Virus record (IMG/VR): IMGVR_UViG_3300031785_000008
Location: 1 to 46,698 of that record
Direction: 5' to 3' (one strand)
DNA from: a virus
Length of the DNA stretch: 46,698 bases
This document shows, one piece after another, positions 4,411 to 30,938 of the stretch. Numbering within the stretch: position 1 is the first letter of the stretch; every line of letters starts with the position of its first letter. Under the pieces are notes generated by a model. It saw nothing but the letters and a program-made list of their open reading frames with translations. It searched no databases and had not been told where the DNA came from. The position numbers and the translations under genes were made by a program.

Positions 4411-6501
4411 TTAAATGTCTTCGTTTCTTACACTCTTGTTGTTAAATAATGAATTTTCTTTTGTGACTTCTGTTCCCTCTTGCTCAAGCATCATTACACC
4501 CTGAATGACAGAATATGTATTTGGATTCTTGAATATAAGTTTGAGAATATCTTTGTCTTCAGTCATTTCTTTCGATAGGGCTGACTCATCAAAAGGTTCT
4601 TGAGTAATCAAAGCTGCTTGTGCTAGTCCAAATTTATCAGGAGGTATTCCTAATGCTCTGGCTACTTTTACATAATACTCAGGCATATCTTTGACAGACT
4701 TACTAGAGCTCTGTGCCCAAGTTAATAAATCTTTATCAGCTTGTTCGCCTGCCAATGACATTCTGTTAGTTTTCCATTGATTATTCATGCCTTGCTGTAC
4801 GCCTATGGAAACATTCTCGACTTGTTGTTTTTCGTCAGTTGTAACTGTATAATCTGCTATCTGTCCTGCTGCTACATTATCTGGATTTGCTACAAACTCG
4901 TTTACTGCTTGCATTCCCATCTTATGAGCTATATTTTCATCTTTACTTGCTGCATACGCTATTTGGTAAGCGTCATTATATTTTGCTTCAACAGTTGCTC
5001 TTAAATTTAAAAATTGATTAGATTTTATATCTGCTTGACCGTAATTAGTTTTCATTGCGGTTTGTGTTACACTATCAAACCTAGTTGCATTGTCTTTATA
5101 AGGTCCTGTGCCGGGTGTTAAATGAGATTGTTCAGATACAAGATACTTTTTATATTCATTATAAATAGCAGTACTAACGTTTCTTAAATCGTTTGGATGT
5201 AACGTATCATTCTGACTTACTAATCTGTCATTTAATATAGCTCTAGCTTGATCGTCAGGTACATATCCTTTTATTGCATTTTTAATTGAAGGAGGAACAT
5301 ATCCATATTTAACTTCAAATGCTTCTTTAAGAACATCTGCCTGTTCTTCACTTATAGGACCCATCTCTTTTAAATAAGATACATCAGCAGCAATTTTTAC
5401 TCCTTCCTCTGCTTTTTTAGCTTCGTCATATTTAATTCCTGCTACTTCTATTTGCGTTCTAAGTTGTTGGTTACTTTTTTCTATTGTTCTTTCACCACTA
5501 CGTCCTACAAATTTTTCTTCAATTAAAGCTATAGCTTGAGCTCTACTAACCTTACCATTTTCTACAAGAGAAACTAAGTTCATTCCAAATTGAGCTTCAG
5601 CCTCTGCATTAGTTGCATTACGGTTTCTAGACTTATACATCCTGATGTAGTTTTGATACATCTGTGTACCTTCTTCCAGATTACCACCAGTAATGATGGT
5701 TTCCATAGAAGTTAGAGTATTTTGTTGGAAAATATTTTTTCTTGCATTTATTCTATCCTGCAAAGCTACAGCATTGTTTGCCTTGTTATATGCAAGAACA
5801 TGAGGTCTAACTTGTTCAGCAATTAATGCTTCATTGTCAATACCTTGTAATTGATAAGCAAACTCAAACTGTATCTTTTCATTTAAAGCAGCTCTTTCAG
5901 CTTCAGTAGGTTGGTATGCGTTTAGATCTCCATTAGCAAACTTTACGGTTCTAACTGTACCATCTGGGTCAGTAACATCTATAGAAACTGTTTCTCTTGC
6001 GTTCTCTACAAATGTACCGTAGTTTAAACCTATCTTTCTTGCATACTCTTCTTGTACTGCATACTGTTCCCATTTAGATAAATCTCTAAATTCTTCTGCT
6101 GTAACAATATCACCTGATCTTTCGATAGTAGAAGCTGTCTCATGTATAGCTTCACTTTCTTCAAAAAGATCTCTCTTTTCTCCACTAAAGTGTGCTTTTA
6201 AATTATCACCAACACCATAAAGTAATATTCTATTTTTTAATGCTGCTGTCTTTTTCTTTCTATGTTCTTCTTGTTTCTTTGCAAATATATTTTCTACTGT
6301 AGAAGAAAGTTTAGATATACCCTTCCACATTTTTTCGGAATTACGTATTCTATCATCTGCATTTTTTTCTAACTCACGAAGATATCTCTCTTCGTCGTTC
6401 TGAACTTGTCTGTCTAAACGTTCTTGTTCAGGTATAACGTCTAGTATTTCTTCTGGTGTAAAGTCTCCTGAATCGACGTTATATTGAGGAATCTGTATCA
6501 T
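4411..6501 (-). CDS. gp15-like internal virion protein
   Basis: A 696-aa, mostly helical protein in the T7 gene 15 position between the gp14-like and gp16-like genes. Members of this family form the middle ring of the internal core and the periplasmic part of the ejection tunnel. The N-terminal 80 residues are rich in Glu/Arg/Lys and look like a coiled coil; the rest has no enzyme motif that I recognise. It begins two bases after the gp14-like stop, so it is part of the same late operon. The call rests on order, size and composition, not on a diagnostic motif. Confidence 0.8.
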   Translation of the reverse strand: MIQIPQYNVDSGDFTPEEILDVIPEQERLDRQVQNDEERYLRELEKNADDRIRNSEKMWKGISKLSSTVENIFAKKQEEHRKKKTAALKNRILLYGVGDNLKAHFSGEKRDLFEESEAIHETASTIERSGDIVTAEEFRDLSKWEQYAVQEEYARKIGLNYGTFVENARETVSIDVTDPDGTVRTVKFANGDLNAYQPTEAERAALNEKIQFEFAYQLQGIDNEALIAEQVRPHVLAYNKANNAVALQDRINARKNIFQQNTLTSMETIITGGNLEEGTQMYQNYIRMYKSRNRNATNAEAEAQFGMNLVSLVENGKVSRAQAIALIEEKFVGRSGERTIEKSNQQLRTQIEVAGIKYDEAKKAEEGVKIAADVSYLKEMGPISEEQADVLKEAFEVKYGYVPPSIKNAIKGYVPDDQARAILNDRLVSQNDTLHPNDLRNVSTAIYNEYKKYLVSEQSHLTPGTGPYKDNATRFDSVTQTAMKTNYGQADIKSNQFLNLRATVEAKYNDAYQIAYAASKDENIAHKMGMQAVNEFVANPDNVAAGQIADYTVTTDEKQQVENVSIGVQQGMNNQWKTNRMSLAGEQADKDLLTWAQSSSKSVKDMPEYYVKVARALGIPPDKFGLAQAALITQEPFDESALSKEMTEDKDILKLIFKNPNTYSVIQGVMMLEQEGTEVTKENSLFNNKSVRNEDI

Positions 6502-11281: not shown

Positions 11282-11307
11282 AAAAAAAAAGGGGAGCCGA
11301 AGCTCCC
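11282..11307 (-). terminator. Intrinsic terminator after the capsid gene
   Basis: Read on the minus strand this is GGGAGC-TTCG-GCTCCC, a 6-bp GC stem closed by a UUCG tetraloop, followed by C and then nine T. It lies 18 bases after the capsid stop and ends exactly at the start codon of the next gene. T7 has its only major terminator at the same place, after gene 10. Confidence 0.92.
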
Positions 11308-11324: not shown

Positions 11325-12488
11325 TTAAGCGTTTGCAGGGTATGAAGTACCGAATGCTGTTGGTGCTGTTGCTCCAACATAAAGCTCAACTGCTGCTGCT
11401 GGGTTTAGGAAATCTGCCCCCATAGCCATGCGACCTAATATCACATCGCCTTGGTATACCACGGACACATCTCCAGAAGTTACCTGAACCTGTGGTCCAA
11501 TAGCTTCTACAACTCCGGCTGCCTCTTTCTGGAAAATTAATCCAGCAGATTTAGCGAAGTCTGTGCTGTTACCGTAGTTGTTGTTAAGTCCTGTAACTGA
11601 AGCTCTGCCGTCAGCAAGTGCTGTTCCGACATGTGAACCTAAGTTAGAAGGAGATGTCTCACCTGTAGTTCCGCCATAAGCTACACCATGCTTAGAAAGG
11701 AATGGGATGTTCATTGACTTGTAGATCTTGATGCCTGCAATTTCAATGATTCCATTACCTGACTGTAATGCTGAACCTTGAACGTCTCTGTTGATAAGAC
11801 CGTTAGAACCTATGTCCTGTATAAGTGCGTAGTACTGACGAGGGTTTAGTACAGCTACTCTGCCGCCACTAGAAACTCCTTTTTCGTCAAGAGCTGCTGC
11901 TGCATCATAGAAAGCATTAACTAAGTTGCCTGCGTTGTAAGCATCAGAATCATTAGTTGTTGATCCAACTCTGATCTGTGTTCCACCGGGCTCTACGAAG
12001 TTAGTCTTAGATACAGGAGAAGCCTGTCTTGCACCTTTTGCAATAGCTCTGAAGATGAGTCTGTCATACTTCTCTGCTAATGCGTATCCAATCTTCTTGG
12101 AAATCTCGCCCCTCAATTCAAAATGCGCAAGTGTTTCATCAAGCTCATACACGAAGGCTGAACTGATTAATAGGTCGTCGCATGTAATTGTTTTTTCAGC
12201 TACTGGAGGTGCTCCGTCGCTGTTACCGAGAATGCTGTTTCCGGGTGTATGGAACTCCGCAGTTGTTCTACCTGTGTAGATGAACTGAAGACTCTTTCCA
12301 TTCTTGAGTGTTCTCTTCATTACCAAGTCACGAGCAATAGACTCATGCTGGAAGCCTTTGAACATCTCACCACTGAACAGCTTTAAGTACAATGCTCTAG
12401 CGTCACCGGCACTATTTAACTGACCCTGACGAGTAAGTTGTGCCTTTAATGGAGCTTGAGCTGTCGTATATTGCGTTTGCTGTGCCAT
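11325..12488 (-). CDS. Major capsid protein (gp10-like)
   Basis: A 387-aa major head protein of the T7-like cyanophage type. It starts MAQQTQYTTAQAPLKAQL and contains the HK97-fold landmarks RALYLKLFSGEMFKGFQH, a P-loop-like EFHTPGNSILG and the C-terminal ADFLNPAAAVELYVG. It is preceded by a 186-base untranslated leader with hairpins and a tRNA-like element, and followed by a strong terminator, so its mRNA has defined ends. No Shine-Dalgarno sequence is visible before the ATG; the leader is A/T-rich there. Confidence 0.93.
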   Translation of the reverse strand: MAQQTQYTTAQAPLKAQLTRQGQLNSAGDARALYLKLFSGEMFKGFQHESIARDLVMKRTLKNGKSLQFIYTGRTTAEFHTPGNSILGNSDGAPPVAEKTITCDDLLISSAFVYELDETLAHFELRGEISKKIGYALAEKYDRLIFRAIAKGARQASPVSKTNFVEPGGTQIRVGSTTNDSDAYNAGNLVNAFYDAAAALDEKGVSSGGRVAVLNPRQYYALIQDIGSNGLINRDVQGSALQSGNGIIEIAGIKIYKSMNIPFLSKHGVAYGGTTGETSPSNLGSHVGTALADGRASVTGLNNNYGNSTDFAKSAGLIFQKEAAGVVEAIGPQVQVTSGDVSVVYQGDVILGRMAMGADFLNPAAAVELYVGATAPTAFGTSYPANA

Positions 12489-12641
12489 GATTAATGGTAA
12501 AAATTAAAGGTATATATTGTCGTTCCTAACGTTAGAATTGTTGCAGTCTTAATTGGTCTAACGTGAGACTGGCACGTTTTGTGGTCTTTTCCCACCGTCG
12601 ACGGGTAAAAGGTATCCTCCTCAGAGGGCTTTTCCCAAATT
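12489..12641 (-). promoter_or_regulatory. Capsid mRNA leader with hairpins
   Basis: Non-coding leader between the tRNA-like element and the capsid ATG. On the minus strand it holds an ACGTTAGA...TCTAACGT stem (12529-12564, 8 bp, 20-base loop) that contains the palindrome CTAACGTTAG, another 10-bp palindrome CCGTCGACGG (near 12595-12604), and a CCTC-TG-AGG mini-hairpin. A 75-aa open frame crosses it but has no family resemblance and poor context. Role inferred: mRNA stability or translation control of the most abundant virion protein. Confidence 0.5.
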
Positions 12642-12688
12642 GAATAGGGAGGAGTCGAACCTCCCCTAGGTCACCTATTTGACTATTC
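12642..12688 (-). ncRNA. tRNA acceptor/T-arm minihelix-like element 1
   Basis: Read on the minus strand: 5' GAATA (12688-12684), an 18-base insert, GGGAGG, loop TTCGACT, CCTCCC, then TATTC (12646-12642). The loop matches the tRNA T-loop consensus TTCRANY with the closing G-C pair. The GAATA/TATTC stem stacks directly on the T-stem, giving 11 continuous base pairs. The insert is far too short for D and anticodon arms, so this is not a tRNA gene. It overlaps the end of a 17-aa ORF and lies at the head of the capsid leader. RNase P minimal substrates have this shape; a processing role is an inference. Confidence 0.6.
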
Positions 12689-12728
12689 TTGTGTAAGCAA
12701 CGCCACGATATACGAAAGTAACTTTCAT
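12675..12728 (-). CDS. 17-aa micro-ORF upstream of capsid
   Basis: ATG at 12728 preceded by a good ribosome site (GGAGATAACCATG), encoding MKVTFVYRGVAYTRIVK and then TAG. The sequence resembles the start of the short cyanobacterial DUF4278 proteins (MKLTYRGVSYE-type). Few genes in this genome have so clear a Shine-Dalgarno sequence, which supports translation despite the length. It could be a leader peptide, because it ends inside the minihelix element, or a remnant of a longer DUF4278 gene. Confidence 0.5.
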   Translation of the reverse strand: MKVTFVYRGVAYTRIVK

Positions 12729-12761
12729 GGTTATCTCCATATACTAAGCCCCGTTCCATGC

Positions 12762-13205
12762 TTAGTCGTCATGCGTCCCGTGAGGGATGAACGGACGTTC
12801 TATAGATTCTGCGGTTACTGATGCAAAACTTAGAGTTACTCGTGGTGTTAGTACAACTGGAGTATGATAAATACCTTTAGGTATGTAGAGATACTCTCCC
12901 GGAACTAACGTAACCCATTCATTTTCTATAAAGTATTTCACGCTACCTATTGCTTGTATTATTAATACATCATCTTCATCTTTATGTTTCCCAAAGGTAG
13001 GACTATCAGAAGTTAATGATACATAAACGTGCATGTCACCTTCATCACTAAGCACTTCATCATATGCTTTTTGTAGTGTATTAGGTCTGTAATCGTTATG
13101 TAATACGAATGTAGTACCTAAGATTGTTGCAGTGTTACTATGAACTTCATAATTTAATTTATCAATTACATCAGCCCAACTAATCTGACTGCATATTTTG
13201 TACAT
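12762..13205 (-). CDS. Cupin / JmjC-like protein, putative Fe(II) oxygenase
   Basis: A 147-aa protein from the ATG at 13205; an in-frame GTG at 13244 would add 13 residues. The N-terminus MYKICSQISWADVIDKLNYE resembles cyanobacterial and phage cupins. The core GKHKDEDDVLIIQAIGSVKYFI, a GEYLYIPKGIYHTP turn and a final TLSFASV strand give a jelly roll with a possible HxD...H metal triad. It lies between psbA with its 42-aa partner and the capsid. Substrate unknown. A cupin without catalysis is the alternative. Confidence 0.6.
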   Translation of the reverse strand: MYKICSQISWADVIDKLNYEVHSNTATILGTTFVLHNDYRPNTLQKAYDEVLSDEGDMHVYVSLTSDSPTFGKHKDEDDVLIIQAIGSVKYFIENEWVTLVPGEYLYIPKGIYHTPVVLTPRVTLSFASVTAESIERPFIPHGTHDD

Positions 13206-13261
13206 CTTTATTATAAGTAGGTGGATACCAATGCCGTGAGACACCGGATATGATAAAGATA

Positions 13262-13390
13262 TTAGTTATCAGAGTTATCGTTGTCAGAAAGTTCTTTATC
13301 AGTTTCTTTCTTTTTTTCCTCTTCTTCATTAACTAAAAAACGGGTGACGGTTGCTCTTCCGAATCCGCCACCTTCAGATTGGTGTGACAT
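13262..13390 (-). CDS. Small acidic protein, 42 aa, coupled to psbA
   Basis: ATG at 13390 overlaps the psbA stop as TAATG. The product is [20 protein letters not shown] followed by a Glu/Lys/Asp-rich tail ending SDNDNSDN. The Gly-rich GFGRATVTRFLV block looks conserved-type, and the tail is probably disordered. Tight coupling to psbA suggests co-expression. No function can be assigned. Confidence 0.7.
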   Translation of the reverse strand: MSHQSEGGGFGRATVTRFLVNEEEEKKKETDKELSDNDNSDN

Positions 13391-14469
13391 TATCCTATTG
13401 ATGGTGCTGTTAGTGCTACCTTGGTTGACTCAGCAGAAGCTAAATCAAGAGGGAAGTTGTGAGCGTTACGCTCGTGCATTACCTCGAAGCCAAGGTTGGC
13501 TCTGTTTAATACATCTGCCCATGTTGGAATTACTTTTCCATTAACATCTACGACTGACTGGTTAAAGTTAAAACCGTTAAGGTTGAAAGCCATAGTGCAG
13601 ATTCCCATGGAGGTAAGCCATATGCCAACCACTGGGAAAGTACCAAGGAAAAAATGTAGAGCACGAGAATTATTGAAAGAAGCATATTGAAATATCAATC
13701 TCCCAAAGTACCCGTGTGCAGCGACAATATTATATGTCTCTTCATCTTGCCCAAACTTGTAGCCATAGTTCTGCGATACGTCCTCTGTCGTTTCTTTAAT
13801 AAGTGAGGAAGTAACCAGACTTCCGTGCATAGCAGCGAAAAGAGCTCCACCGAATACCCCAGCAACACCAGCCATATGGAATGGGTGCATGAGGATATTA
13901 TGCTCGGCTTGGAATACGAACATAAAGTTAAAAGTACCAGAGATACCAAGAGGCATACCATCACTGAAACTCCCCTGCCCAAAAGGGTAGACAAGAAACA
14001 CTGCTAGTGCTGCTGATACTGGAGCTGTGTATGCTACAAAGATCCAAGGTCTCATGCCAAGACGGTATGAGAGTTCCCATTGTCTTCCTGCATAAGCCAG
14101 TACTCCTATTAAGAAGTGGAAGATAATGAGCTGATAAGGTCCGCCGTTGTATAACCACTCGTCTAAAGTGCCAGCTTCCCAAATCGGGTAAAAGTGCAAT
14201 CCTATTGCGTTGGAGCTAGGGACTACTGCTCCAGATATAATGTTGTTTCCGTACAACAACGAGCCTGATACTGGCTCACGTATGCCGTCGATGTCCACTG
14301 GTGGGGCAGCGATAAAGGCGAGTATAAAACATGTAGTGGCTGCTAGTAAGCAAGGTATCATAAGGACACCAAACCATCCCACGTAGAGACGGTTCTGTGT
14401 ACTTGTGACCCACTCGCAAAACTTCTGCCAGTTGCTACTGCTTTCTCTAGTTAGTGAGATTGCAGCCAT
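13390..14469 (-). CDS. psbA: Photosystem II reaction centre protein D1
   Basis: A full-length 359-aa D1 protein. The redox and ligand residues are present: Asp61, His118, Tyr161 (Tyr[10 protein letters not shown]), Asp170, His190 ([10 protein letters not shown]), His198, and His332/Glu333/His337/Asp342/Ala344 in [14 protein letters not shown] 15-residue C-terminal extension after Ala344 is normally removed on maturation. Residue 130 is Gln (GRQWELS), the low-light D1:1 type in cyanobacteria. There is no intron or frameshift. The gene overlaps hli upstream and a 42-aa ORF downstream by TAATG. It replaces damaged host D1 in thylakoids during infection, a well-established cyanophage strategy. 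Confidence 0.98.
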
Positions 14470-14799: not shown

Positions 14800-15594
14800 T
14801 TAAAAATTCAGATCTGAGTTGTTTAGTTTTTCTACGACGTCAGCTCTGTAAGCTGGATCATTGTCATAGCGTGGGTCTCCCATAGCTGCTACAAGCTCTG
14901 CCTGAGATCTAAATACATCTCCAGCAGAGGAGGGAGCACGTCCTTGTAGCATGCGTCCTTCATAGCCATTGGCTTCTTGGTACGCTGATTGTAATCCTTG
15001 AAAAGCAATTCCAATAGCTGCTGGATTACCAGAGTCAACTACTGAATCGAAGGCATCAATTTGTCTGTCTCCTAAATTGCTGGCAGCCCACTCAATTACT
15101 TGGTTGTAATTAGATTCACCGCCTGCTGCATTCATAACGCTATTGACTTGAGCTTCAGACATCTCCGCAGCTTGTGCTGTATTGACTTGTCCATTCTCAT
15201 ACATTTCCATATAAGCACTAACCAAATCTTGGCTACTCATTTCAGAAAACCTTTCAATAGTTTCTTCACTTAGCGTGCCATCGTTTGCATAATACTCATC
15301 TGATGCTTCGTTAATCAAACTGACCGCAGGAGCATACGGAGATACCTCTTCATCGCCTTCTTCTTCTTCTGCATATCCTTCGTCACTTTCTTCGTAGTCT
15401 GTTTCTTCTTCTTGTCCAAGTTTTTTCTGTAATGATAAGTAAGCTGACTCTAATTCTTCAGCGTTTTTATATTTACCAGCTAGTAATCCTTCTTGTTCTG
15501 CTACTAACTGTTCTCCTACCTCAAGAGAGTTTTGTTCCTCTGCGGAAAGAACCTCTGTTTCAGGAGTGTTATCATACGAATATGTTTCTGCCAT
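14800..15594 (-). CDS. Capsid assembly scaffolding protein (gp9-like)
   Basis: A 264-aa, very acidic protein between the portal and the capsid group, the place of T7 gene 9. It contains KYKNAEELESAYLSLQKKLGQ, a common scaffold motif, then an Asp/Glu stretch (about residues 65-85) and a helical C-terminal part. Such proteins guide procapsid assembly and leave before DNA packaging. The start follows the portal stop directly. Confidence 0.85.
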   Translation of the reverse strand: MAETYSYDNTPETEVLSAEEQNSLEVGEQLVAEQEGLLAGKYKNAEELESAYLSLQKKLGQEEETDYEESDEGYAEEEEGDEEVSPYAPAVSLINEASDEYYANDGTLSEETIERFSEMSSQDLVSAYMEMYENGQVNTAQAAEMSEAQVNSVMNAAGGESNYNQVIEWAASNLGDRQIDAFDSVVDSGNPAAIGIAFQGLQSAYQEANGYEGRMLQGRAPSSAGDVFRSQAELVAAMGDPRYDNDPAYRADVVEKLNNSDLNF

Positions 15595-17614: not shown

Positions 17615-18302
17615 TCGAGTGTTCAAAAAATGCAGGCATTCTAGCTGCCTTGGTCTGAGAAAATTCTGGTGCTTTACCTTCGTACATAAGTCTGTCGCTA
17701 GCATCTAACCAAAATTTTTTGTCCAAATATCTATCGGAACTTTGTTTCAAGGGTTGCATAACCCAGTTAATTGTTGCCTTTCTTAGTTTGTCTAGTGACT
17801 GACTAGGCTTGAGACCTAGCTCTGTACATACCAATGAGTTAGCTGCCACATGGACTTGCTCATCTCTTGATATGTCTGCACTGACAGTTCTTAGACCGGC
17901 GTCACCACAGAATCTAAAGAATGGTAGTAATACAAAAAAGATTGCTCTCTCTGCTACTAATGCCTTTAGTATTGTATGGTCTGGATGTTGTTCCCACGCA
18001 GCACGTAGTCGCAGTGCTTCGGCTTCGGCTTTGTCATCTACGCCAAGAGCGTTGGTGATGTAGCCAAGTGCAAGATCATGTTTGATCTCGTCTTTGACGT
18101 TGCTTTCTAAAAGTGCTCTAGCAGCGTCGGGAACTTCTTTATCAAGTGCGTCTGTAATGAACTCGCCAACTGGTAACTCCATATGGCGTATTGCAAGAGC
18201 ACGGTAGATGGTTTCTTCTGCACCTTCTTTTAGTTTTCCTTTAGATGTTTGTACGGGTGTCCAAGATCTTTTCCGGGACAGTAGTTTTATGTAGGGATTC
18301 AT
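17589..18302 (-). CDS. nrdB: Class I ribonucleotide reductase small subunit
   Basis: A 237-aa ferritin-like R2 protein, shorter than cellular NrdB. Candidate metal ligands can be read in order: Glu in RHMELP, the ExxH of VKDEIKHD, Glu in VAERAIFF, and the ExxH of SRDEQVH. The residue four after the first His, where the radical Tyr sits in E. coli (Tyr122), is Leu here; a Tyr lies two residues later. The start at 18302 is preferred because its ATG overlaps the nrdA TGA (ATGA); a start three codons earlier is possible. Together with NrdA it makes dNTPs from host ribonucleotides. In related podoviruses this gene was long left hypothetical. Confidence 0.85.
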   Translation of the reverse strand: MNPYIKLLSRKRSWTPVQTSKGKLKEGAEETIYRALAIRHMELPVGEFITDALDKEVPDAARALLESNVKDEIKHDLALGYITNALGVDDKAEAEALRLRAAWEQHPDHTILKALVAERAIFFVLLPFFRFCGDAGLRTVSADISRDEQVHVAANSLVCTELGLKPSQSLDKLRKATINWVMQPLKQSSDRYLDKKFWLDASDRLMYEGKAPEFSQTKAARMPAFFEHSNVNLPQYS

Positions 18303-22624: not shown

Positions 22625-24137
22625 CGTATTTACATGTTTCTTTGTTGTATTTCAATTGACATGCGACACCTACTTCTCCGGAGTATCTATTTTTTAAAAC
22701 ACGAAGTATTGTTTGATCTACAGCTTCCGTTTGTTGGTTTCTTTCGAGTCCCCAAACTTCATCCGCAAGCTGGCTTATGGCTGCACTACCTCTTAGTTGT
22801 CCAAGAGTTACACGTGCTCCTTCTTCATGGTTCTTATCTGTTTGTGTTCTACGTAGATGAGATACCAAAAATAGTTTTATACCAGTACGTTCAACTAAAC
22901 TTCGTAGCTTTGTCATAGTGGTGTCGATCATCTTGCGCTCATCTCCATCTAATCCAGAGATTAATATGCTCAAGTGGTCTAAGAATATGGTCTTTGTTTC
23001 GAGGGCAAGTGCCATATATTCAATGCGACTATAAATAATATCAGGATCAGCACTGCCGAAGTGGTCATAAAGGAAGAGATTCCAGCCTTTGAGGGTTTTA
23101 TCATAAGCTTGTTCAAGTGTGTCCTTGGAATGTTCTCCAAGATGTAATGCTTGTCCTGTAGCTACGGACATAAGTCCTAAAGCTGTTCTTCTATTTGACT
23201 CTTCTAGTGCGATATACCCGACACGTTCGTCTTGATCTAATAAGTGAGTCGCCAACTGCCTTGTCAGGGTTGATTTGCCCTGCCCTGTGCCTGCACTTAT
23301 TACTGTAAGCTCACCGTATCTAATTCCATGAGTCATCTGTTGCAACCCTGCAAATGGATACTCAAAGTCACATGGTGGACTTGGATTTGTGACTAACTCT
23401 AATAGTGATTTACCATCTACTATACCATCGGGTTGATACGGCGAAGCATTCCAGATAGCTTTCCTAATCGCCTCAGCGTCATTATTTTGTAATGCGTCAG
23501 AAGCATCCTTGTACGGGTCTGGTAAATGAGCAATCTTAACTTTCCCAGACGGTAAGAGCGCAGCCACTGCTTCCGTCGCCAGCTTACCGGCTTCGTCTTT
23601 ATCGAAGAAAAGGATAATTTCTTCATAACCTTGAAAAAGCTGTAGTTGTTTTTGTATATCCTTTTTTGCTGACGCAGCTCCATGAGGAAGTGAGATATGC
23701 GCCCAGTTGGGGTAAGCCTCCCAGCCCGATAGTGCATCAAGTTCTCCTTCGTAGACCATGATACGTTTGCCAGTAGAAGGAATAAGAGACTGACCAAAAA
23801 GAGTGTCAGTAGTATTACCTTCATACTTAAAGTCTTTTAATTTTGTTTTCGTTTTGAACCCTTGAAGTGTTCTGTCGCTGCTGTAATAAGGGAAGCGTAA
23901 AAGTTCTCCATCCCTGTAGACTTTGTAGTGTTGACAGGTTTCTTCGCTGATTCTTCTTTTTTGCAGCCTTTGGGCTGATCCTGTGAATTTGACATTGGTG
24001 GGCATATGATTGTGATTATCTTGTGTCGTTAAGTTTTGACAACTAAAACAAAATGTATTTCCGTCGCTGTATATAGCTTTCGCATCAGATGAGCCACACA
24101 CTTCGCATGGCTCGTGTCTTAAAAATTCTGCTGTCAT
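22581..24137 (-). CDS. Primase-helicase (gp4-like)
   Basis: A 518-aa bifunctional replication protein. The N-terminal zinc ribbon is CEVCGS...CFSCQN (residues about 10-35). The TOPRIM parts are YEGELDALSGWEAY and ILFFDKDEAGKLA. The helicase Walker A is SAGTGQGKSTLTRQ and Walker B is TIFLDHLSIL. A C-terminal LRGSAAISQLADEVWGLERN matches the DnaB-like core. The ATG at 24137 overlaps the endonuclease TGA (ATGA) and is preferred to an in-frame ATG three codons upstream. Confidence 0.95.
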   Translation of the reverse strand: MTAEFLRHEPCEVCGSSDAKAIYSDGNTFCFSCQNLTTQDNHNHMPTNVKFTGSAQRLQKRRISEETCQHYKVYRDGELLRFPYYSSDRTLQGFKTKTKLKDFKYEGNTTDTLFGQSLIPSTGKRIMVYEGELDALSGWEAYPNWAHISLPHGAASAKKDIQKQLQLFQGYEEIILFFDKDEAGKLATEAVAALLPSGKVKIAHLPDPYKDASDALQNNDAEAIRKAIWNASPYQPDGIVDGKSLLELVTNPSPPCDFEYPFAGLQQMTHGIRYGELTVISAGTGQGKSTLTRQLATHLLDQDERVGYIALEESNRRTALGLMSVATGQALHLGEHSKDTLEQAYDKTLKGWNLFLYDHFGSADPDIIYSRIEYMALALETKTIFLDHLSILISGLDGDERKMIDTTMTKLRSLVERTGIKLFLVSHLRRTQTDKNHEEGARVTLGQLRGSAAISQLADEVWGLERNQQTEAVDQTILRVLKNRYSGEVGVACQLKYNKETCKYDETTDTIFNPSTDF

Positions 24138-24490: not shown

Positions 24491-25071
24491 TAGAAGTCGT
24501 CTTCTTCTACTGAACTTGGTGCTGCATCTTCAAAAGCAGGCACAACATTAGGTTCTTGTGCTTTGAATCCATCAGTGCTACCAAATAATTCGGCTGCTCC
24601 TGCTTCATCTAAGTCTCCACTGTCTACACCTACCTCTGACTGGATAGCAACTATCTGTACTCCACTCAACTTAAGTGATGTGCCATAGGTCACGCCATCT
24701 CTTAGTATGTATGGCTTCTGAGTAAATCCAAGCTTAACTTTACTGCCTGCATATACTGGTGTATCTGTGTTTGTTATTGGTGTGCCTTCAGTATCTACAA
24801 CTGGAGGTCTTTTATCATCACTCCAAGAAAACTTAATAAGATATTTACCTTTTGATACTTCCTCCCATGGAGTTGGTTTTAGTGTAGATCTCTTAGGATT
24901 CTTGAGTTTACTTTCTGCCCACTTGAGGCAGTCCTCTCTTTCAGTTTCTAGTGTGGAGATTATCTCCTCTCCAACTATTGCTTTTAATGAATAGCCAAAC
25001 TTACTTGGCTTTAACACAGCTTGATATCCCTCTAGGGTTACAGGCTCGGGTGTTACGTGTATGTTTCTCAT
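24490..25071 (-). CDS. Single-stranded DNA-binding protein (gp2.5-like)
   Basis: A 193-aa protein from the ATG at 25071 that overlaps the RNA polymerase TAA. It has an OB-fold-like core (PWEEVSKGKYLIKFSWSDDK, VYAGSKVKLGFTQKPYI) and a very acidic C-terminal tail ending SSVEEDDF, the hallmark of gp2.5 that contacts polymerase and helicase. Position between RNA polymerase and endonuclease I is as in T7. Confidence 0.88.
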   Translation of the reverse strand: MRNIHVTPEPVTLEGYQAVLKPSKFGYSLKAIVGEEIISTLETEREDCLKWAESKLKNPKRSTLKPTPWEEVSKGKYLIKFSWSDDKRPPVVDTEGTPITNTDTPVYAGSKVKLGFTQKPYILRDGVTYGTSLKLSGVQIVAIQSEVGVDSGDLDEAGAAELFGSTDGFKAQEPNVVPAFEDAAPSSVEEDDF

Positions 25072-27401
25072 TAACAAAAAAAGTATTGTGAATCAATTAC
25101 AGCTTCCGGTTTAAGGTCGCCAATAATCGGTGGTTTTTCTTCAGCTCCTATTGCTAGGGCGAAGTCGGTTAGTGGTTCATGCTCTGCGAACAGGTGCATG
25201 TAAGTTTTACGTACAAGACTAGATAGCTTGCACATATCTGTAGCTCTGCATAATACACTGTCATGTATCAATGCAATGGGAAAGTTTGTTGATGTTGTAG
25301 CTAGATGAAGTAAGCTTGCATCTAATGAATGTATTAGATTAGGTGCAGTTGCGTTCTTGTGATGATTCAGGTCAACACCTGTTTCAGCTCCAGCTATGTG
25401 TATCTCACATCTACCCATTAATTGTGTGCGTATAACAGTTGACTTATATTTCATTAACTTTTGCTTAACATTGAAACCTGATGGTGTTGTCCATCTGATT
25501 TCACTAGCTCCAGCTCTGATAGCTCGTGCTATCTCTTGTTCAATCCATTTCATTACGCTCATAGCTCCCGGAACTACCTCGTTCATGGCAGCTCGTACAG
25601 CTTTTACGCATTGTGTCAACTCTTCTTTGTCTACGTCTACGCCCTTGTCTTTGAATGCGTCCCTGATATAGGAGCGATTAGAGAAAGGCTTGGCATTGTA
25701 TGGTATGGTCATCACACAACGCTTCGTCACCTTTCTATCCCAGTGGGGTTTTAGCCGATCAGGGATTGCGTCCATGCTTTTTGCTGCAATAGTTGCATAA
25801 GCGTCTTGGGGTTTTTCACTCCCTATGACGTTTACCATACGAGCAGTGGACGCGTCCTTGGCGAGACCGGCGAGAATCTGGAGACCACTACATGTAGCGT
25901 CTACAGCTACTGGTAAGTGAGTCTCAAACTTATGTTCGTAAAACAGCTCGTACCATTCGTTACAAGCAGCCAAAAATAACCAAGGCTCGTCAGCATTTTC
26001 CCAATCAGCAATGTTACCAATAGGATCTTTCCATACTCTCTCTACTAAAGCTCTGTTCTGATAGTTGTCTATCCATTCCAGTCTTTCCTGCATGGTTGCT
26101 TTATCTAAACCATACGTTGTAGCAAGTTGGAACTTTATCCAATCCATACCCTTGGCAGTTATCTTAGCACCTTCATTAAATAAAATCAAACTTTTTCCAA
26201 AGTCTGTGTCTTGTGGTGTAAGTAAGCTAGGTATTGGGTATGCTCTACCCCGATAGTCAAAACTCCAAGGTATATAAAATACCTCATCTTCAAACTCTCG
26301 TACTACTTCCATAGTCATACGAGTTCGGCAGGACTTACGTACTTCAGCAGCCTGCAAGTTTCTAGCTATCGTTGCTTCTTTTTTCCAACTCTTCCATACC
26401 TCCTTGCTTGCCTCTTCTGGAGGTTTTGGAGGGATATCATGTTGAATGACAGGTCTAAATTTTCCTACGCTAATTCCTCTATCCTCTAACTCTCTCGCTA
26501 CCTCTACTATAAAAGGATTTAGCTTGTAAGAAACTTGTTGAATTTTGTTAATAAAGTCGTAGGTAATTTCCCCCTGTATTAACCCGTCATCGGTCTTTCT
26601 TATCAAATCATGGCAACGTGTCAAATCATTTAGATAATAACCTCCATTTTGGAGAGCGTGCCAATTACGTGGAGGGATAAGCATAGGCTTAGCAAGTGGA
26701 CTGAATAATTCAGCCATTCGCATGATGTCTGCATGTTGTTTAATTAATAATTCAGTAGGTTTAAATATAGAATATCTTTTACTACCTTTTACAATTAAAT
26801 CTCTTTCAAACCATCCTGACACTTCCATCAGGCAGTCCATAAGAAAGGTTCCAACCTTGACTTTGGTAGCTTTGTCCCAATGAATCCAAGGTGATATGTT
26901 TGTTTTGTGCATCAAAGTCTGTATGCACTTACGCTTGTACTCTGTACCTTTTGCTTGGTGCCAGTAGTTCTTTTTTAACGTAGTTAACAAGGCTGGTGCT
27001 TCCTTGTCATAGTAATCCATCTGTGATTCAGCTTCTATCGCTGCACCTATAGCTATTGCTATGGCTGTTACATAATGTTTTTTCTGTTGTGGAGAAAATA
27101 CATGGTCAAATGCAACTTTGCATGTGAGTAAAGCTTGTACTTCTGTGCTGATGGGCAGGATATGCTTGTGAAAGATGGCATAGTTTCTACCAGCTTGGTT
27201 TAAAAACTTTTCTTTTTTACTATCAATGAATGCAATGAGATCAGGCAATATTGAACTAACGCATGCTGAGCCATAAACAGTAGCACTAGCATAAGTCTTT
27301 TCCTCTAACTTCGTAGTGTTAGAACGTAGCTTATCTAGTCCCCCTTTAATTTGTTTACGCTCGTAGTTCTGCTGATCCTGTATTTGTTGTTCAGTTAGCA
27401 T
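25071..27401 (-). CDS. Single-subunit RNA polymerase (gp1-like)
   Basis: A 776-aa T7-type RNA polymerase, shorter than T7 (883 aa), mainly in the N-terminal domain. Catalytic motifs are clear: first Asp in VAVDATCSGLQILAG, the O-helix Lys in KRCVMTIPYNAKPFSN, NLIHSLDASLLHLA, and the second Asp in ALIHDSVLCR. The last residues (SQYFFC) resemble the buried aromatic foot of T7 RNAP. It transcribes middle and late genes from phage promoters. A 20-nt stretch inside the gene (26577-26596) recurs exactly at 33460-33479. Confidence 0.97.
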   Translation of the reverse strand: MLTEQQIQDQQNYERKQIKGGLDKLRSNTTKLEEKTYASATVYGSACVSSILPDLIAFIDSKKEKFLNQAGRNYAIFHKHILPISTEVQALLTCKVAFDHVFSPQQKKHYVTAIAIAIGAAIEAESQMDYYDKEAPALLTTLKKNYWHQAKGTEYKRKCIQTLMHKTNISPWIHWDKATKVKVGTFLMDCLMEVSGWFERDLIVKGSKRYSIFKPTELLIKQHADIMRMAELFSPLAKPMLIPPRNWHALQNGGYYLNDLTRCHDLIRKTDDGLIQGEITYDFINKIQQVSYKLNPFIVEVARELEDRGISVGKFRPVIQHDIPPKPPEEASKEVWKSWKKEATIARNLQAAEVRKSCRTRMTMEVVREFEDEVFYIPWSFDYRGRAYPIPSLLTPQDTDFGKSLILFNEGAKITAKGMDWIKFQLATTYGLDKATMQERLEWIDNYQNRALVERVWKDPIGNIADWENADEPWLFLAACNEWYELFYEHKFETHLPVAVDATCSGLQILAGLAKDASTARMVNVIGSEKPQDAYATIAAKSMDAIPDRLKPHWDRKVTKRCVMTIPYNAKPFSNRSYIRDAFKDKGVDVDKEELTQCVKAVRAAMNEVVPGAMSVMKWIEQEIARAIRAGASEIRWTTPSGFNVKQKLMKYKSTVIRTQLMGRCEIHIAGAETGVDLNHHKNATAPNLIHSLDASLLHLATTSTNFPIALIHDSVLCRATDMCKLSSLVRKTYMHLFAEHEPLTDFALAIGAEEKPPIIGDLKPEAVIDSQYFFC
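26577..26596 (-). repeat. 20-nt exact repeat, copy inside RNA polymerase gene
   Basis: TATTAACCCGTCATCGGTCT on the plus strand, identical to 33460-33479. With a two-base gap the identity extends to a neighbouring CCCCT. Here it encodes TDDGLI of the polymerase. On the minus strand it reads into TTAATACAGGGGGAA, which recalls the initiation end of T7-class promoters. Function unproven. Confidence 0.6.
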
Positions 27402-28065: not shown

Positions 28066-28269
28066 TTAACAGACAAAATGTCCTTTGCACTCCCAAGTCC
28101 ATACAAATTGGTGCATATCGCCATATTCGTCCTTGACTCTAGCATCTACTATCTTTGCAATAGTAACCTTGTCTTGTGCTGTAAACAAGTCACATACGTT
28201 GATGTCCTTGGTGCGGTGGAGCTTTTTGTTAAAGTCTTCCGCTTGTTGCATGAGGTCGTTATATTCCAT
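28066..28269 (-). CDS. Unknown early protein, 67 aa
   Basis: The product is [20 protein letters not shown], then [20 protein letters not shown] and a Trp/Cys-containing end, [11 protein letters not shown]. It overlaps the aldolase stop by 11 bases. The N-terminal half is helical. No function recognised. Confidence 0.7.
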
Positions 28270-29269
28270 AGGTAGGGATAGTTAATGCTTGACCAATACA
28301 TCCAAAGGATTCATACCTTTCAAGGCATACCTTTCTCATGTACTGACGAGCTATTGAATTAAAGTGTCTTGGATCAAAGTTAGAAGGATCAGTAATCTGA
28401 GCTTCATATATTGCAGCAGTGTAAGCTAATCTTAAATCTGTATCAATGTTGATTTTACGTATACCGTTGTCAATACCTTCACGTATGGAGTCAATTGGTA
28501 CACCATAAGTTTCAGGAATCTTACCGCCATTAGTATTGATTAAATCTATGTATTGCCAAGGGACTGAACTAGCTCCGTGCATTACTAGGTGTGTATTTGG
28601 CACGGCTTCGTGTATAGCTTTTATTCTGTCTATGTCTAAAACGTCAGATGTTGGTGGTTTACTGAACTTGTAAGCTCCATGTGATGTACCGATAGCAATA
28701 GCTAGTGCGTCAACACCTGTCTTTTTTACAAAGTCAACAGCTTGATCTGGGTCAGTAAGTAACATGTCCTTGGACAGCTCACCTTCAAATCCATGTCCAT
28801 CTTCTGCTTCACCTTTCCCTGTTTCTAATGAGCCTAAGCAACCAAGCTCACCTTCAACACTAACTCCTACATCATGTGCAAATTCAACGACTCGCTTTGT
28901 TACATTTACGTTATAATCATAACTAGCTGGTGTTTTACCATCAGCCTCAAGTGAACCGTCCATCATTACCGACGTAAAGCCAGCTACGCATGCTTGTGAA
29001 CATGTTTTTGGTGAATTACCATGGTCTTGGTGCATGACTATTGGTAAGTGTGGGTATTTTTCCGCAGCAGATTTAATTAGATACATGAGATACCCATCTG
29101 CATATTTTCTCGCACCTCGTGATGCTTGCAGTATTACAGGAGAGCAAATAGTATCGGCAGCTTCCATGATAGCTTGGATTTGCTCCATGTTGTTGACATT
29201 GAAAGCAGGAATACCATAATTATTTTCAGCAGCATGATCTAACACATGCTTGAGTGGTACTAAACTCAT
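28259..29269 (-). CDS. fba: Class II fructose-1,6-bisphosphate aldolase
   Basis: A 336-aa zinc-dependent aldolase very similar in motif content to the Calvin-cycle enzyme of cyanobacteria. Visible are [20 protein letters not shown], the zinc/catalytic segment [63 protein letters not shown] and [11 protein letters not shown]. The C-terminus stops about 20 residues earlier than cyanobacterial homologues, after [14 protein letters not shown]. It joins or splits triose phosphates and fructose bisphosphate. It sits in the early block, overlapped on both sides by small phage genes, so it is phage-borne and not an assembly join. Together with TalC it could steer carbon to pentose phosphates. Confidence 0.95.
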
Positions 29270-29976: not shown

Positions 29977-30144
29977 TTAAGAATTAACTACAACTCTTGC
30001 ATATTCATAGCGGGCTGAGTTGTACCCAGCCTCCTTGTGAATTACTCGAAACCCCTTGTCTAGCAAGGCTTTATGGGTTTCGTCCGCGCGTCGTGTAGAC
30101 TCGGGTGAGCTGTCATCATAAACCATATAAATATGGTTATCCAT
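29977..30144 (-). CDS. Unknown early protein, 55 aa
   Basis: The frame opens further upstream, but the ATG at 30144 overlaps the stop of the previous gene (TAATG) and has a strong ribosome site AGGAGG close by. The product MDNHIYMVYDDSSPESTRRA continues DETHKALLDKGFRVIHKEAGYN. The strand-helix-strand pattern suggests a small alpha/beta domain. No family recognised. Confidence 0.75.
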   Translation of the reverse strand: MDNHIYMVYDDSSPESTRRADETHKALLDKGFRVIHKEAGYNSARYEYARVVVNS

Positions 30145-30839
30145 TATGCTACCTCCTGTAGTGACTGATTGACTTTTTTGGACTTGTTGCCATGTGCGAG
30201 GAATGCAACAACGCATGTACGCTTGGACTGTTGGCAAAGACCGCAGTCATTGCAGTTGGTGTCACGTGTTTGAGCTGGACATACTACGACGCGGTGACCG
30301 TCGGGTGTATGTGTGGCTACGTCCTTGCTGTTGTCTACGACAACGACAGCAGGCACGCCCTCGGCTACGCATTCGTCCGCTTGCTGCATGCTCTCGCATG
30401 AGGCGTTGATGGTAAAACCGTTGCGGTTACTGTACTTTACAGCTTCGAGGTTGTGCAAGTACTCGAGACGGTGGTGTGTGTAGGTGTAACCCTTGGCACC
30501 ACTGGATTTGTTAGCATCGACAAGAGACTTGAGCAAGTCAAGTCTGATGAGCTCACGACCATTGACGTCCTTGGTGTAACCAAGGTCGCCAGCTTGGTTG
30601 TGCCTCCATAGCTGACCGCGCTCTAACCCACTAACAAAGTTAGTGAGGTCAGACCAAGTACCACCACGTAGACCGTGGCTGACTTTTTTCCAATGCCAAG
30701 AGACCGGACCGGACTTTGCGTAGCAACCTCCGGATTGTAGGTGTGGACAAGTGCTGGGACATGATGCCTCCTCGGTTGTGGTAACTGGCATCTTGCCAGT
30801 TTTAGCATTGCTGGATTTTTTTGTGATGTGGACTAGCAT
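30144..30839 (-). CDS. Cys-rich conserved phage protein (DUF7227-like)
   Basis: A 231-aa protein with Cys clusters at both ends: SCPSTCPHLQSGGCYAKSGP (residues 27-46) and CPAQ...CNDCGLCQQSKRTCVVAF (about 189-214). In between are QLWRHNQAGDLGY and FTINASCESMQQADE. I recognise the pattern from hypothetical phage proteins of the DUF7227 type; the Cys spacing would suit iron-sulphur or zinc binding. The 30939 gene and a structured spacer precede it. The coding sequence itself holds many short perfect inverted repeats. Confidence 0.75.
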   Translation of the reverse strand: MLVHITKKSSNAKTGKMPVTTTEEASCPSTCPHLQSGGCYAKSGPVSWHWKKVSHGLRGGTWSDLTNFVSGLERGQLWRHNQAGDLGYTKDVNGRELIRLDLLKSLVDANKSSGAKGYTYTHHRLEYLHNLEAVKYSNRNGFTINASCESMQQADECVAEGVPAVVVVDNSKDVATHTPDGHRVVVCPAQTRDTNCNDCGLCQQSKRTCVVAFLAHGNKSKKVNQSLQEVA

Positions 30840-30938
30840 GACAAGATGGAAGTTAGGTGGATAATTAACCCTAAAGGGTTACGGTGTCCTTGCGGAGTTG
30901 AACCGCAAGTGAATACCCAGACACCAGTCTAGCTAAAG
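30840..30938 (-). promoter_or_regulatory. Structured spacer with three stem-loops
   Basis: Three consecutive stem-loops fill this 99-base gap: TAACCC-TAAA-GGGTTA (30866-30881), the tRNA minihelix-like element (30883-30925), and TCTAGC-TAAA-GCTAGA (30928-30943). The outer two share the loop TAAA. No T-run follows, so this does not look like termination. It probably shapes the junction between the first and second early messages. Confidence 0.5.
30883..30925 (-). ncRNA. tRNA acceptor/T-arm minihelix-like element 2
   Basis: Minus strand 5'-3': GGTGTC, a 10-base insert (TGGGTATTCA), CTTGCGG, loop TTCAACT, CCGCAAG, GACACC. The loop fits the tRNA T-loop consensus, with the closing G53-C61 pair. 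The GGTGTC/GACACC stem follows the T-stem without a gap, giving 13 stacked pairs with no mismatch. There is no space for the rest of a tRNA. The same architecture occurs upstream of the capsid gene (12642-12688). Confidence 0.65.

Follow-up and report, generated by a model that had tools for sequence, protein, structure and literature searches.

A conserved tRNA-like element ahead of the capsid mRNA leader of marine cyanopodoviruses, a candidate processing signal for host RNase P and RNase Z

The window analyzed here is the whole 46,698-nt stretch of IMG/VR virus record IMGVR_UViG_3300031785_000008 (positions 1 to 46,698), a cyanopodovirus sequence in which the minus strand carries nearly all genes (Table 1). 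A glutamine-II riboswitch and a short ORF, which encodes the YRG peptide and has an in-frame ATG slightly further upstream, are separated from the major capsid protein gene, mcp, by a small tRNA-like element, hereafter the mini-tRNA. The TAG stop codon of the YRG ORF (12677-12675) lies inside the D-like loop of this element, which is followed by a structured leader of about 60 nt, by a further 90 nt or so up to the mcp start, and, after mcp, by a tail protein gene. The initial annotation had placed the element upstream of a capsid gene with an intrinsic terminator at its far end, and both features are present. Elsewhere, the phage carries a gene for a class II fructose-bisphosphate aldolase (28259-29269, minus strand, Pfam PF01116), and the contig ends (1-1160 and 45539-46698) are 86–96% alike, an imperfect terminal duplication that is perhaps an assembly overlap of two strains.

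Table 1. Features of the window discussed in the text, with positions counted from its first nucleotide.
Feature	Position	Strand	Details
Intrinsic terminator 3' of mcp	11283..11307	-	GGGAGCTTCGGCTCCC, stem 11307-11292, then T9
Major capsid protein gene mcp	11325-12488	-	PHROG 267/27239, major head protein
P4 hairpin	12595-12581	-	GTGG-GAAAAGA-CCAC; stem changes as pairs
P3 palindrome	12604-12595	-	CCGTCGACGG
Hairpin P2	~12627-12616	-	CCTC-TGAG-GAGG; enclosed by P1 with AUAC bulge
Leader stem P1	12636-12629/12611-12603	-	GGGAAAAG/CTTTTACCC; covarying upstream of mcp
Discriminator-like A	12641	-	unpaired
Mini-tRNA (tRNA-like element)	12642..12688	- (coding)	covarying in 82 distinct relatives
Mini-tRNA acceptor stem	12688-12684/12646-12642	-	5 bp, GAATA/TATTC
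Mini-tRNA D-like hairpin	12683-12670	-	GTCA-AATAGG-TGAC; placed as D-arm, GG in loop
Mini-tRNA T-stem	12665-12660/12652-12647	-	6 bp, GGGAGG/CCTCCC
Mini-tRNA T-loop	12659-12653	-	TTCGACT
Short ORF, YRG peptide	12675..12728	-	MKVTFVYRGVAYTRIVK*
Glutamine-II riboswitch (RF01704)	12744..12796	-	Rfam 47.9 bits, E = 1.1e-8; upstream of short ORF
160-aa cupin/JmjC-like ORF	12762-13244	-	between psbA and mcp; end overlapped by Gln-II riboswitch
psbA	13390-14469	-	
Scaffold gene	14800-15594	-	
RNA polymerase gene	25071-27401	-	
Second mini-tRNA	30883..30925	- (coding)	upstream of DUF7227 gene (30144-30839, -)

Re-reading positions 12642-12688 on the minus strand gave GAATA-GTCAAATAGGTGACCTAG-GGGAGG-TTCGACT-CCTCCC-TATTC-A, with the two stems and the T-loop described in the initial annotation. 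That description had the acceptor and T-stem right but gave no strand and overlooked the D-like hairpin. It had also pointed to a second element of the same design, which is indeed present at 30883-30925 as GGTGTC-TGGGTATTCA-CTTGCGG-TTCAACT-CCGCAAG-GACACC, built on the same plan with GGTGTC/GACACC as acceptor and TGGGTATTCA as D-like loop. The motif GGTTCRANYCC occurs twice in the window, compared to 0.15 occurrences expected, and a full descriptor (a T-arm with G53-C61, an acceptor of at least 5 bp, 11–13 bp in total, and 8–24 nt between) matched exactly these two elements, each located on the coding strand, across the 46.7 kb. Shuffled sequences gave a mean of 0.027 descriptor matches each, and none of 300 shuffles contained two. 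Neither ARAGORN nor Rfam found a canonical tRNA gene, with a four-arm cloverleaf and anticodon arm, in the window, and across the mini-tRNA and the leader helices P1-P4 no Rfam 15 family came near its gathering score, the Gln-II riboswitch being the sole match. The region of the second element folds better than chance (z = -3.39). The first element does not stand out thermodynamically when folded alone (z = -0.12), and its acceptor taken singly reaches p = 0.04; since these single-element signals are weak, the proof rests on comparison with relatives.

To make this comparison, we collected mcp upstream regions from isolates and IMG/VR contigs, amounting to at least 350 distinct sequences, so that all counts given here are samples, and a script classified the slot, the position directly before the conserved mcp leader. 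A mini-tRNA (class A) occupies the slot at no fewer than 115 loci, with at least 82 distinct elements, including those of the window phage, P-SSP7, P-GSP1, P-SSP3, S-TIP37, S-SBP1, S-CBP3, Syn5, S-TIP28, S-RIP1 and many contigs. At least 203 of the sampled loci, among them P-SSP10, S-RIP2, S-B28, S-CBP1, S-CBP4 and SS120-1, carry a different hairpin (class B; CACCTCAGAG..GGA, with the loop CACCTC[AG][AG]NG..GGA), and at least 12, the annotated isolate NATL1A-7 and 11 contigs (e.g. L213), hold a true tRNA-Gly(UCC). The class B hairpin GCACCTCAGAGTCGGAC (e.g. L046, L209, L211) replaces the mini-tRNA and is almost exclusive to cyanopodovirus capsid genes: among the loci listed, 131 of 136 distinct exact or near-exact matches to its motif lie directly 5' of an mcp. 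A host origin of this motif was rejected, as 257 Gb of cellular genomes yielded 11 matches, none titled cyanobacterial and no more than expected by chance. The script left 20 loci unclassified; several of these are plainly A or B with an odd loop, and in two (L086, L579) no leader of the mcp type was seen. In the Syn5-like phage of locus L457, a group I intron (1093-1319, Rfam 83 bits) is located within the capsid leader.

As the initial annotation had predicted, other cyanopodoviruses have covarying stems and a fixed T-loop ahead of their capsid genes. The 82 distinct class A elements contain 44 sequence variants of the acceptor, although some acceptors assigned by the script at long distance are probably wrong (e.g. 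L570). All four Watson-Crick pair types occur at each of acceptor positions 2, 3 and 4, and three occur at position 5; pairs were counted from script-parsed helices, because MAFFT, applied to mini-tRNAs and to leaders, put the 5' acceptor and the helix borders in the wrong place. The pair closing the T-stem, G53-C61, is invariant (82/82), the T-loop always reads T[T/G]C[A/G]A, pair 1-72 is G-C in 53 elements, and 78 have A or U as discriminator; none of the 82 has CCA after this base. The acceptor search looks for complements and is therefore biased, and 41% of trials with shuffled upstream sequence also produced an acceptor; the real acceptors nevertheless tend to beat their own shuffles (average p 0.11, with 56% of them no higher than 0.1). 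Within the clade of the window phage, the two strands change jointly between GAATA/TATTC and GAGTA/TACTC, the 5' strand being fixed by conserved codons.

The strongest evidence comes from a covariation between the D-region and the T-loop, which corresponds to the elbow contact of tRNA (G18-U55, G19-C56). Elements with U55 in the T-loop have a GG in the D-region (TGGT, TGGA or TAGG) in 40 cases and lack it in one, whereas those with G55 lack the GG in 36 cases and have it in five; the association is strong (Fisher p 2e-16), with the reservations that this value is uncorrected for ancestry and that the GG pattern was defined after the sequences had been inspected. On the capsid-protein tree, which only approximates the history of the elements because the modules move between phages, 12 independent pairs agree on the GG/U55 association and none disagrees (p ~0.0005). 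One near-identical pair, ATCGGTTAGGCGATCT with TTCAACT (L073) and ATCGGTTAAGCGATCT with TGCAAGT (L029), illustrates concerted change. The elbow is not universal, as roughly one in two distinct mini-tRNAs combines G55 with a D-loop that has no GG.

A length rule holds across both classes. In class A, the acceptor and T-stem together span a coaxial length of 11–13 bp, within a search that permitted 10–15 bp, in agreement with a stacked substrate of ~12 bp, and in 74 of 82 elements 13 or 14 nt separate the end of the T-loop from the TTGG of the leader. In class B, 138 of 146 have a corresponding spacing, measured from the end of the loop motif to TTGG, of 11 or 12 nt; the B stem ends after 10 bp, with position 11 mismatched in 127 of 146, and together with two inner C-G loop pairs amounts to ~12 bp, the length of a tRNA acceptor plus T-stem. 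These dimensions suggest that the B hairpin mimics the minihelix. Relatives with unpaired stems or a destroyed T-loop, which the initial annotation had named as evidence against its proposal, were not seen within the mini-tRNA class, but about 58% of classified relatives carry the B hairpin, which that annotation did not foresee and which has to be accounted for as a substitute.

The type of element in the slot (A, B or tRNA) switches at least 57 times on the capsid-protein tree (319 sequences, FastTree), or at least 55 times if A and tRNA are merged. In the group of NATL1A-7, true tRNA-Gly genes occur alongside tRNA-Gly-like forms that retain G1-C72, the 7+5 bp acceptor/T-arm, the UCC anticodon loop and U73, with a reduced D-arm, and that show compensated acceptor pairs (GCGGGTG/CGCCCGC, GCGAGTG/CACTCGC and GCGAGCG/CGCTCGC). 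All of the tRNA-Gly and tRNA-Gly-like forms in the slot end at the leader, at T|TTGGC or T|TATGGC. Those of L170, L472, L477, L502 and their relatives have a bulged anticodon stem in addition to the reduced D-arm but retain the usual glycine identity bases, and these RNAs may still be charged.

The leader that follows the slot is itself structured, and P1-P4 is conserved in about 300 mcp upstream regions. P1 begins 5 nt past the discriminator, and its covarying pairs include GGC/GCC and GGU/ACC, with CUAAG/CUUAG, CUGAG/CUCAG and UAAAG/CUUUA above them; the automatic parser performed poorly for P2, and the P1/P2 assignments are based on sequences read directly. P4 has a fixed GANAGA loop on stems that vary among GUGG/CCAC (231), GUAGG/CCUAC (17), GUCUG/CAGAC (13), GUCG/CGAC (10) and GUGUG/CACAC (4). 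P1 and P3 share the bases CC, and the two helices may be mutually exclusive. As far as Rfam 15 goes, P1-P4 is an undescribed structured RNA.

Mini-tRNAs also occur away from capsid genes, and the element is a reused device rather than a one-off. The second element of the window is kept in its closest relatives (L341-L361, L358), with acceptors GCGTC/GACGC, AGTGTC/GACACT and GATGT/ACATC and T-stems CTTGCGG/CCGCAAG, CTTGGG/CCCAAG and GGTCGG/CCGACC, and it is followed by a hairpin (TAACCC-TTTA-GGGTTA). P-SSP7 has mini-tRNAs at 629, 1026 and 20660, Syn5 at 2727 and 19864, and NATL1A-7 at 23743, besides its tRNA-Gly. Those at 629 and 1026 in P-SSP7, at 2727 in Syn5 and at 23743 in NATL1A-7 precede early or unknown genes, and several have a hairpin directly after them.

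RNase P recognizes the stacked acceptor/T-arm and the elbow, and CCA is thought to block RNase Z. We consider it probable that the mini-tRNA is a tRNA mimic serving as a processing signal for host RNase P and/or RNase Z, and that it sets the 5' end of the capsid mRNA. The late polycistronic transcript, carrying psbA, accessory genes, the riboswitch and peptide, and mcp, would fold the mini-tRNA just ahead of the capsid leader. Cleavage by host RNase P is predicted at the 5' edge of the element, between 12689 and 12688, and/or cleavage by RNase Z past the discriminator, which would place a new 5' end at 12640. The conserved P1/P2 stem would then head the capsid mRNA and shield its 5' end, and the intrinsic terminator 3' of mcp would form the other end. 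Exact copies of the Syn5 RNA polymerase promoter, described previously (PMC3950665), occur in Syn5 only at 4928 and 44796 and not just before mcp, and the capsid mRNA may therefore be cut from a long transcript. The RNase P ribozyme of Synechocystis cuts tRNA-like motifs in viral mRNAs (PMC5723415, PMC4565877), and the consistent lack of CCA in the 82 elements fits a cyanobacterial RNase P whose activity is independent of the 3' CCA (PMC4565877). What the sequences show is a conserved fold, the covariation of D-loop and T-loop, the length rule, replacement by a genuine tRNA gene and reuse at a second site; cleavage, the identity of the enzymes and a benefit to the capsid mRNA are inferred from these, and the covariation could instead serve another tRNA-binding partner. 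Weighing against processing, at least 203 of the 350 or more sampled relatives have the B hairpin in place of a tRNA-like fold; from its position and the length rule, we infer that this hairpin does the job of the mini-tRNA. The processing interpretation offered in the initial annotation is thus supported in part, by the covariation, the fixed length rule and the tRNA-Gly in the slot, but did not anticipate class B.

Processing may coexist with a regulatory switch suggested by the sequences upstream. The Gln-II riboswitch, also called the Downstream-peptide riboswitch, has a short conserved peptide (PMC2864571), and among the leaders tested it precedes 72 of 108 in class A, counting those with sufficient sequence, and 71 of 188 in class B. 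At several loci (L139, L152, L440, L445, L052, L223), a structured-looking stretch (ACGGTTTATGGA or ACGGTTACGGA ... GGAAA), for which Rfam named no family, lies upstream of the slot, after Gln-II or the end of the gene. Of the 82 distinct class A elements, 50 are preceded by a YRG peptide, and 46 of those contain the stop codon of the peptide, 20 in the acceptor 5' strand and 26 in the D-region. In class B, the stop precedes the hairpin at 28 loci and is situated still farther upstream at 17. The overlap in class A suggests that translation competes with folding of the mini-tRNA. It is possible, and we propose it tentatively, that glutamine acts through the riboswitch on translation of the YRG peptide; with similar caution, a ribosome at the stop codon might cover the acceptor 5' strand or the D-arm, unfolding the mimic and altering the processing or expression of mcp. 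The position of the stop inside class A elements and outside class B hairpins, together with the frequency of Gln-II before class A leaders, favors such a switch, but 32 of the 82 distinct mini-tRNAs have no YRG peptide and in four the stop is far upstream, so that coupling is not essential, and the overlap is possibly mere compact packing. A more speculative scheme, which we regard as doubtful, would have the glutamine-sensing riboswitch and leader peptide decide whether the mimic folds, so that host nitrogen status sets RNase P/Z processing and the supply of capsid mRNA, with mini-tRNA, tRNA-Gly and B hairpin as interchangeable cleavage modules.

It seems unlikely that the mini-tRNA or the B hairpin acts uncut, as a domain of a larger P1-P4 leader that recruits ribosomes, EF-Tu or a tRNA-binding protein, or that protects the mRNA. 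The strong conservation and covariation of P1-P4 itself, and the fixed position shared by two unrelated modules, are consistent with such a role. However, maturation of a real tRNA-Gly in the slot would remove it from the transcript, and the unrelated hairpins that follow mini-tRNAs elsewhere indicate no dependence on P1-P4. A decaying tRNA-gene remnant or phage attachment site with no RNA role is highly improbable: tRNA-Gly and partly altered tRNA-Gly forms do occur in the slot, and these phages carry a tRNA-derived attP, but compensatory and tertiary covariation and repeated replacement point to a maintained function. Identity with attP was itself rejected, because the mapped attP of these phages adjoins int and matches tRNA-Leu (PMC8776855), as the P-SSP7 sequence confirms, whereas mini-tRNA sequences differ and covary between phages. 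We give equally little credence to an intrinsic terminator or RNase III hairpin for the upstream psbA transcript; a pattern scan lists the mini-tRNA as terminator-like, but its tail ATTCAATTTG has no U-run, relatives continue with AATTTGGC or ATTGGC (core TTGGC), and neither device accounts for the invariant T-loop or the elbow covariation. A promoter was ruled out: the resemblance of the leader to the Syn5 RNA polymerase promoter ATTGGGCACCCGTAA is countered by the stem covariation of P1 and P4 and by the location of the Syn5 copies elsewhere, a promoter of the ATTGGGCACCCGTAA type was not found upstream of mcp, with a single chance-level match in the window at 18251, and the similarity of P3/P4 to the T7 phi10 transcript start falls with it.

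The arrangement resembles tRNA punctuation, in which tRNAs or tRNA-like folds lie between the genes of polycistronic transcripts, as in mitochondria and in bacterial operons with leader tRNAs. Here, too, folds lie between genes, cuts by RNase P and RNase Z would be expected to release mRNAs, and the slot of NATL1A-7 holds a true tRNA-Gly. Unlike tRNA punctuation, most of the phage elements have no anticodon arm, a non-tRNA hairpin often substitutes for them, and their cleavage is a prediction. The mascRNA of MALAT1 likewise folds as a shortened tRNA within a longer transcript, and its action is attributed to RNase P and RNase Z (PMC5723415 cites Wilusz 2008); the mini-tRNA differs in its phage and bacterial setting and its location upstream of a capsid gene, and has no sequence relation to mascRNA. 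In T7, gene 10 is preceded by a promoter, and the RNase III hairpins are located at other sites. The element occupies the same genomic place, upstream of a T7-like capsid gene with a terminator after it, but its signal is tRNA-like. Among phage transcripts, the non-tRNA RNAs cut by RNase P include phi80 M3 RNA, P1/P7 C4 antisense RNA and T4 gene 32 mRNA (PMC11143913), to which the putative cleavage of the mini-tRNA would be similar; C4 and M3 are small RNAs, and none of the three is a tRNA mimic that is conserved, exchangeable and placed at the head of a capsid mRNA. Gln-II (RF01704) lies directly upstream here with its short conserved peptide, whereas the tRNA-like element downstream is outside the family model. 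Neither the mini-tRNA itself nor a peptide stop codon overlapping a tRNA mimic was described in the open-access literature searched. Processing elements of a tRNA-like kind and phage RNAs cut by RNase P were known before; the capsid-leader element is new to that literature.

Marine cyanopodoviruses are abundant, and their hosts are the commonest photosynthetic bacteria of the ocean. The element bears on the question of how a long late transcript yields much capsid mRNA. If the processing reading is correct, cyanopodoviruses would use host tRNA-maturation enzymes in place of T7-style RNase III sites, and the slot would offer a natural series, from real tRNA to mini-tRNA to hairpin, for defining the minimal requirements of RNase P and RNase Z. 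The overlap with the glutamine-riboswitch peptide would also make a link between nitrogen status and virion production testable in laboratory phages, namely S-TIP37, which can be engineered by recombination (PMC8776855), P-SSP7 and Syn5.
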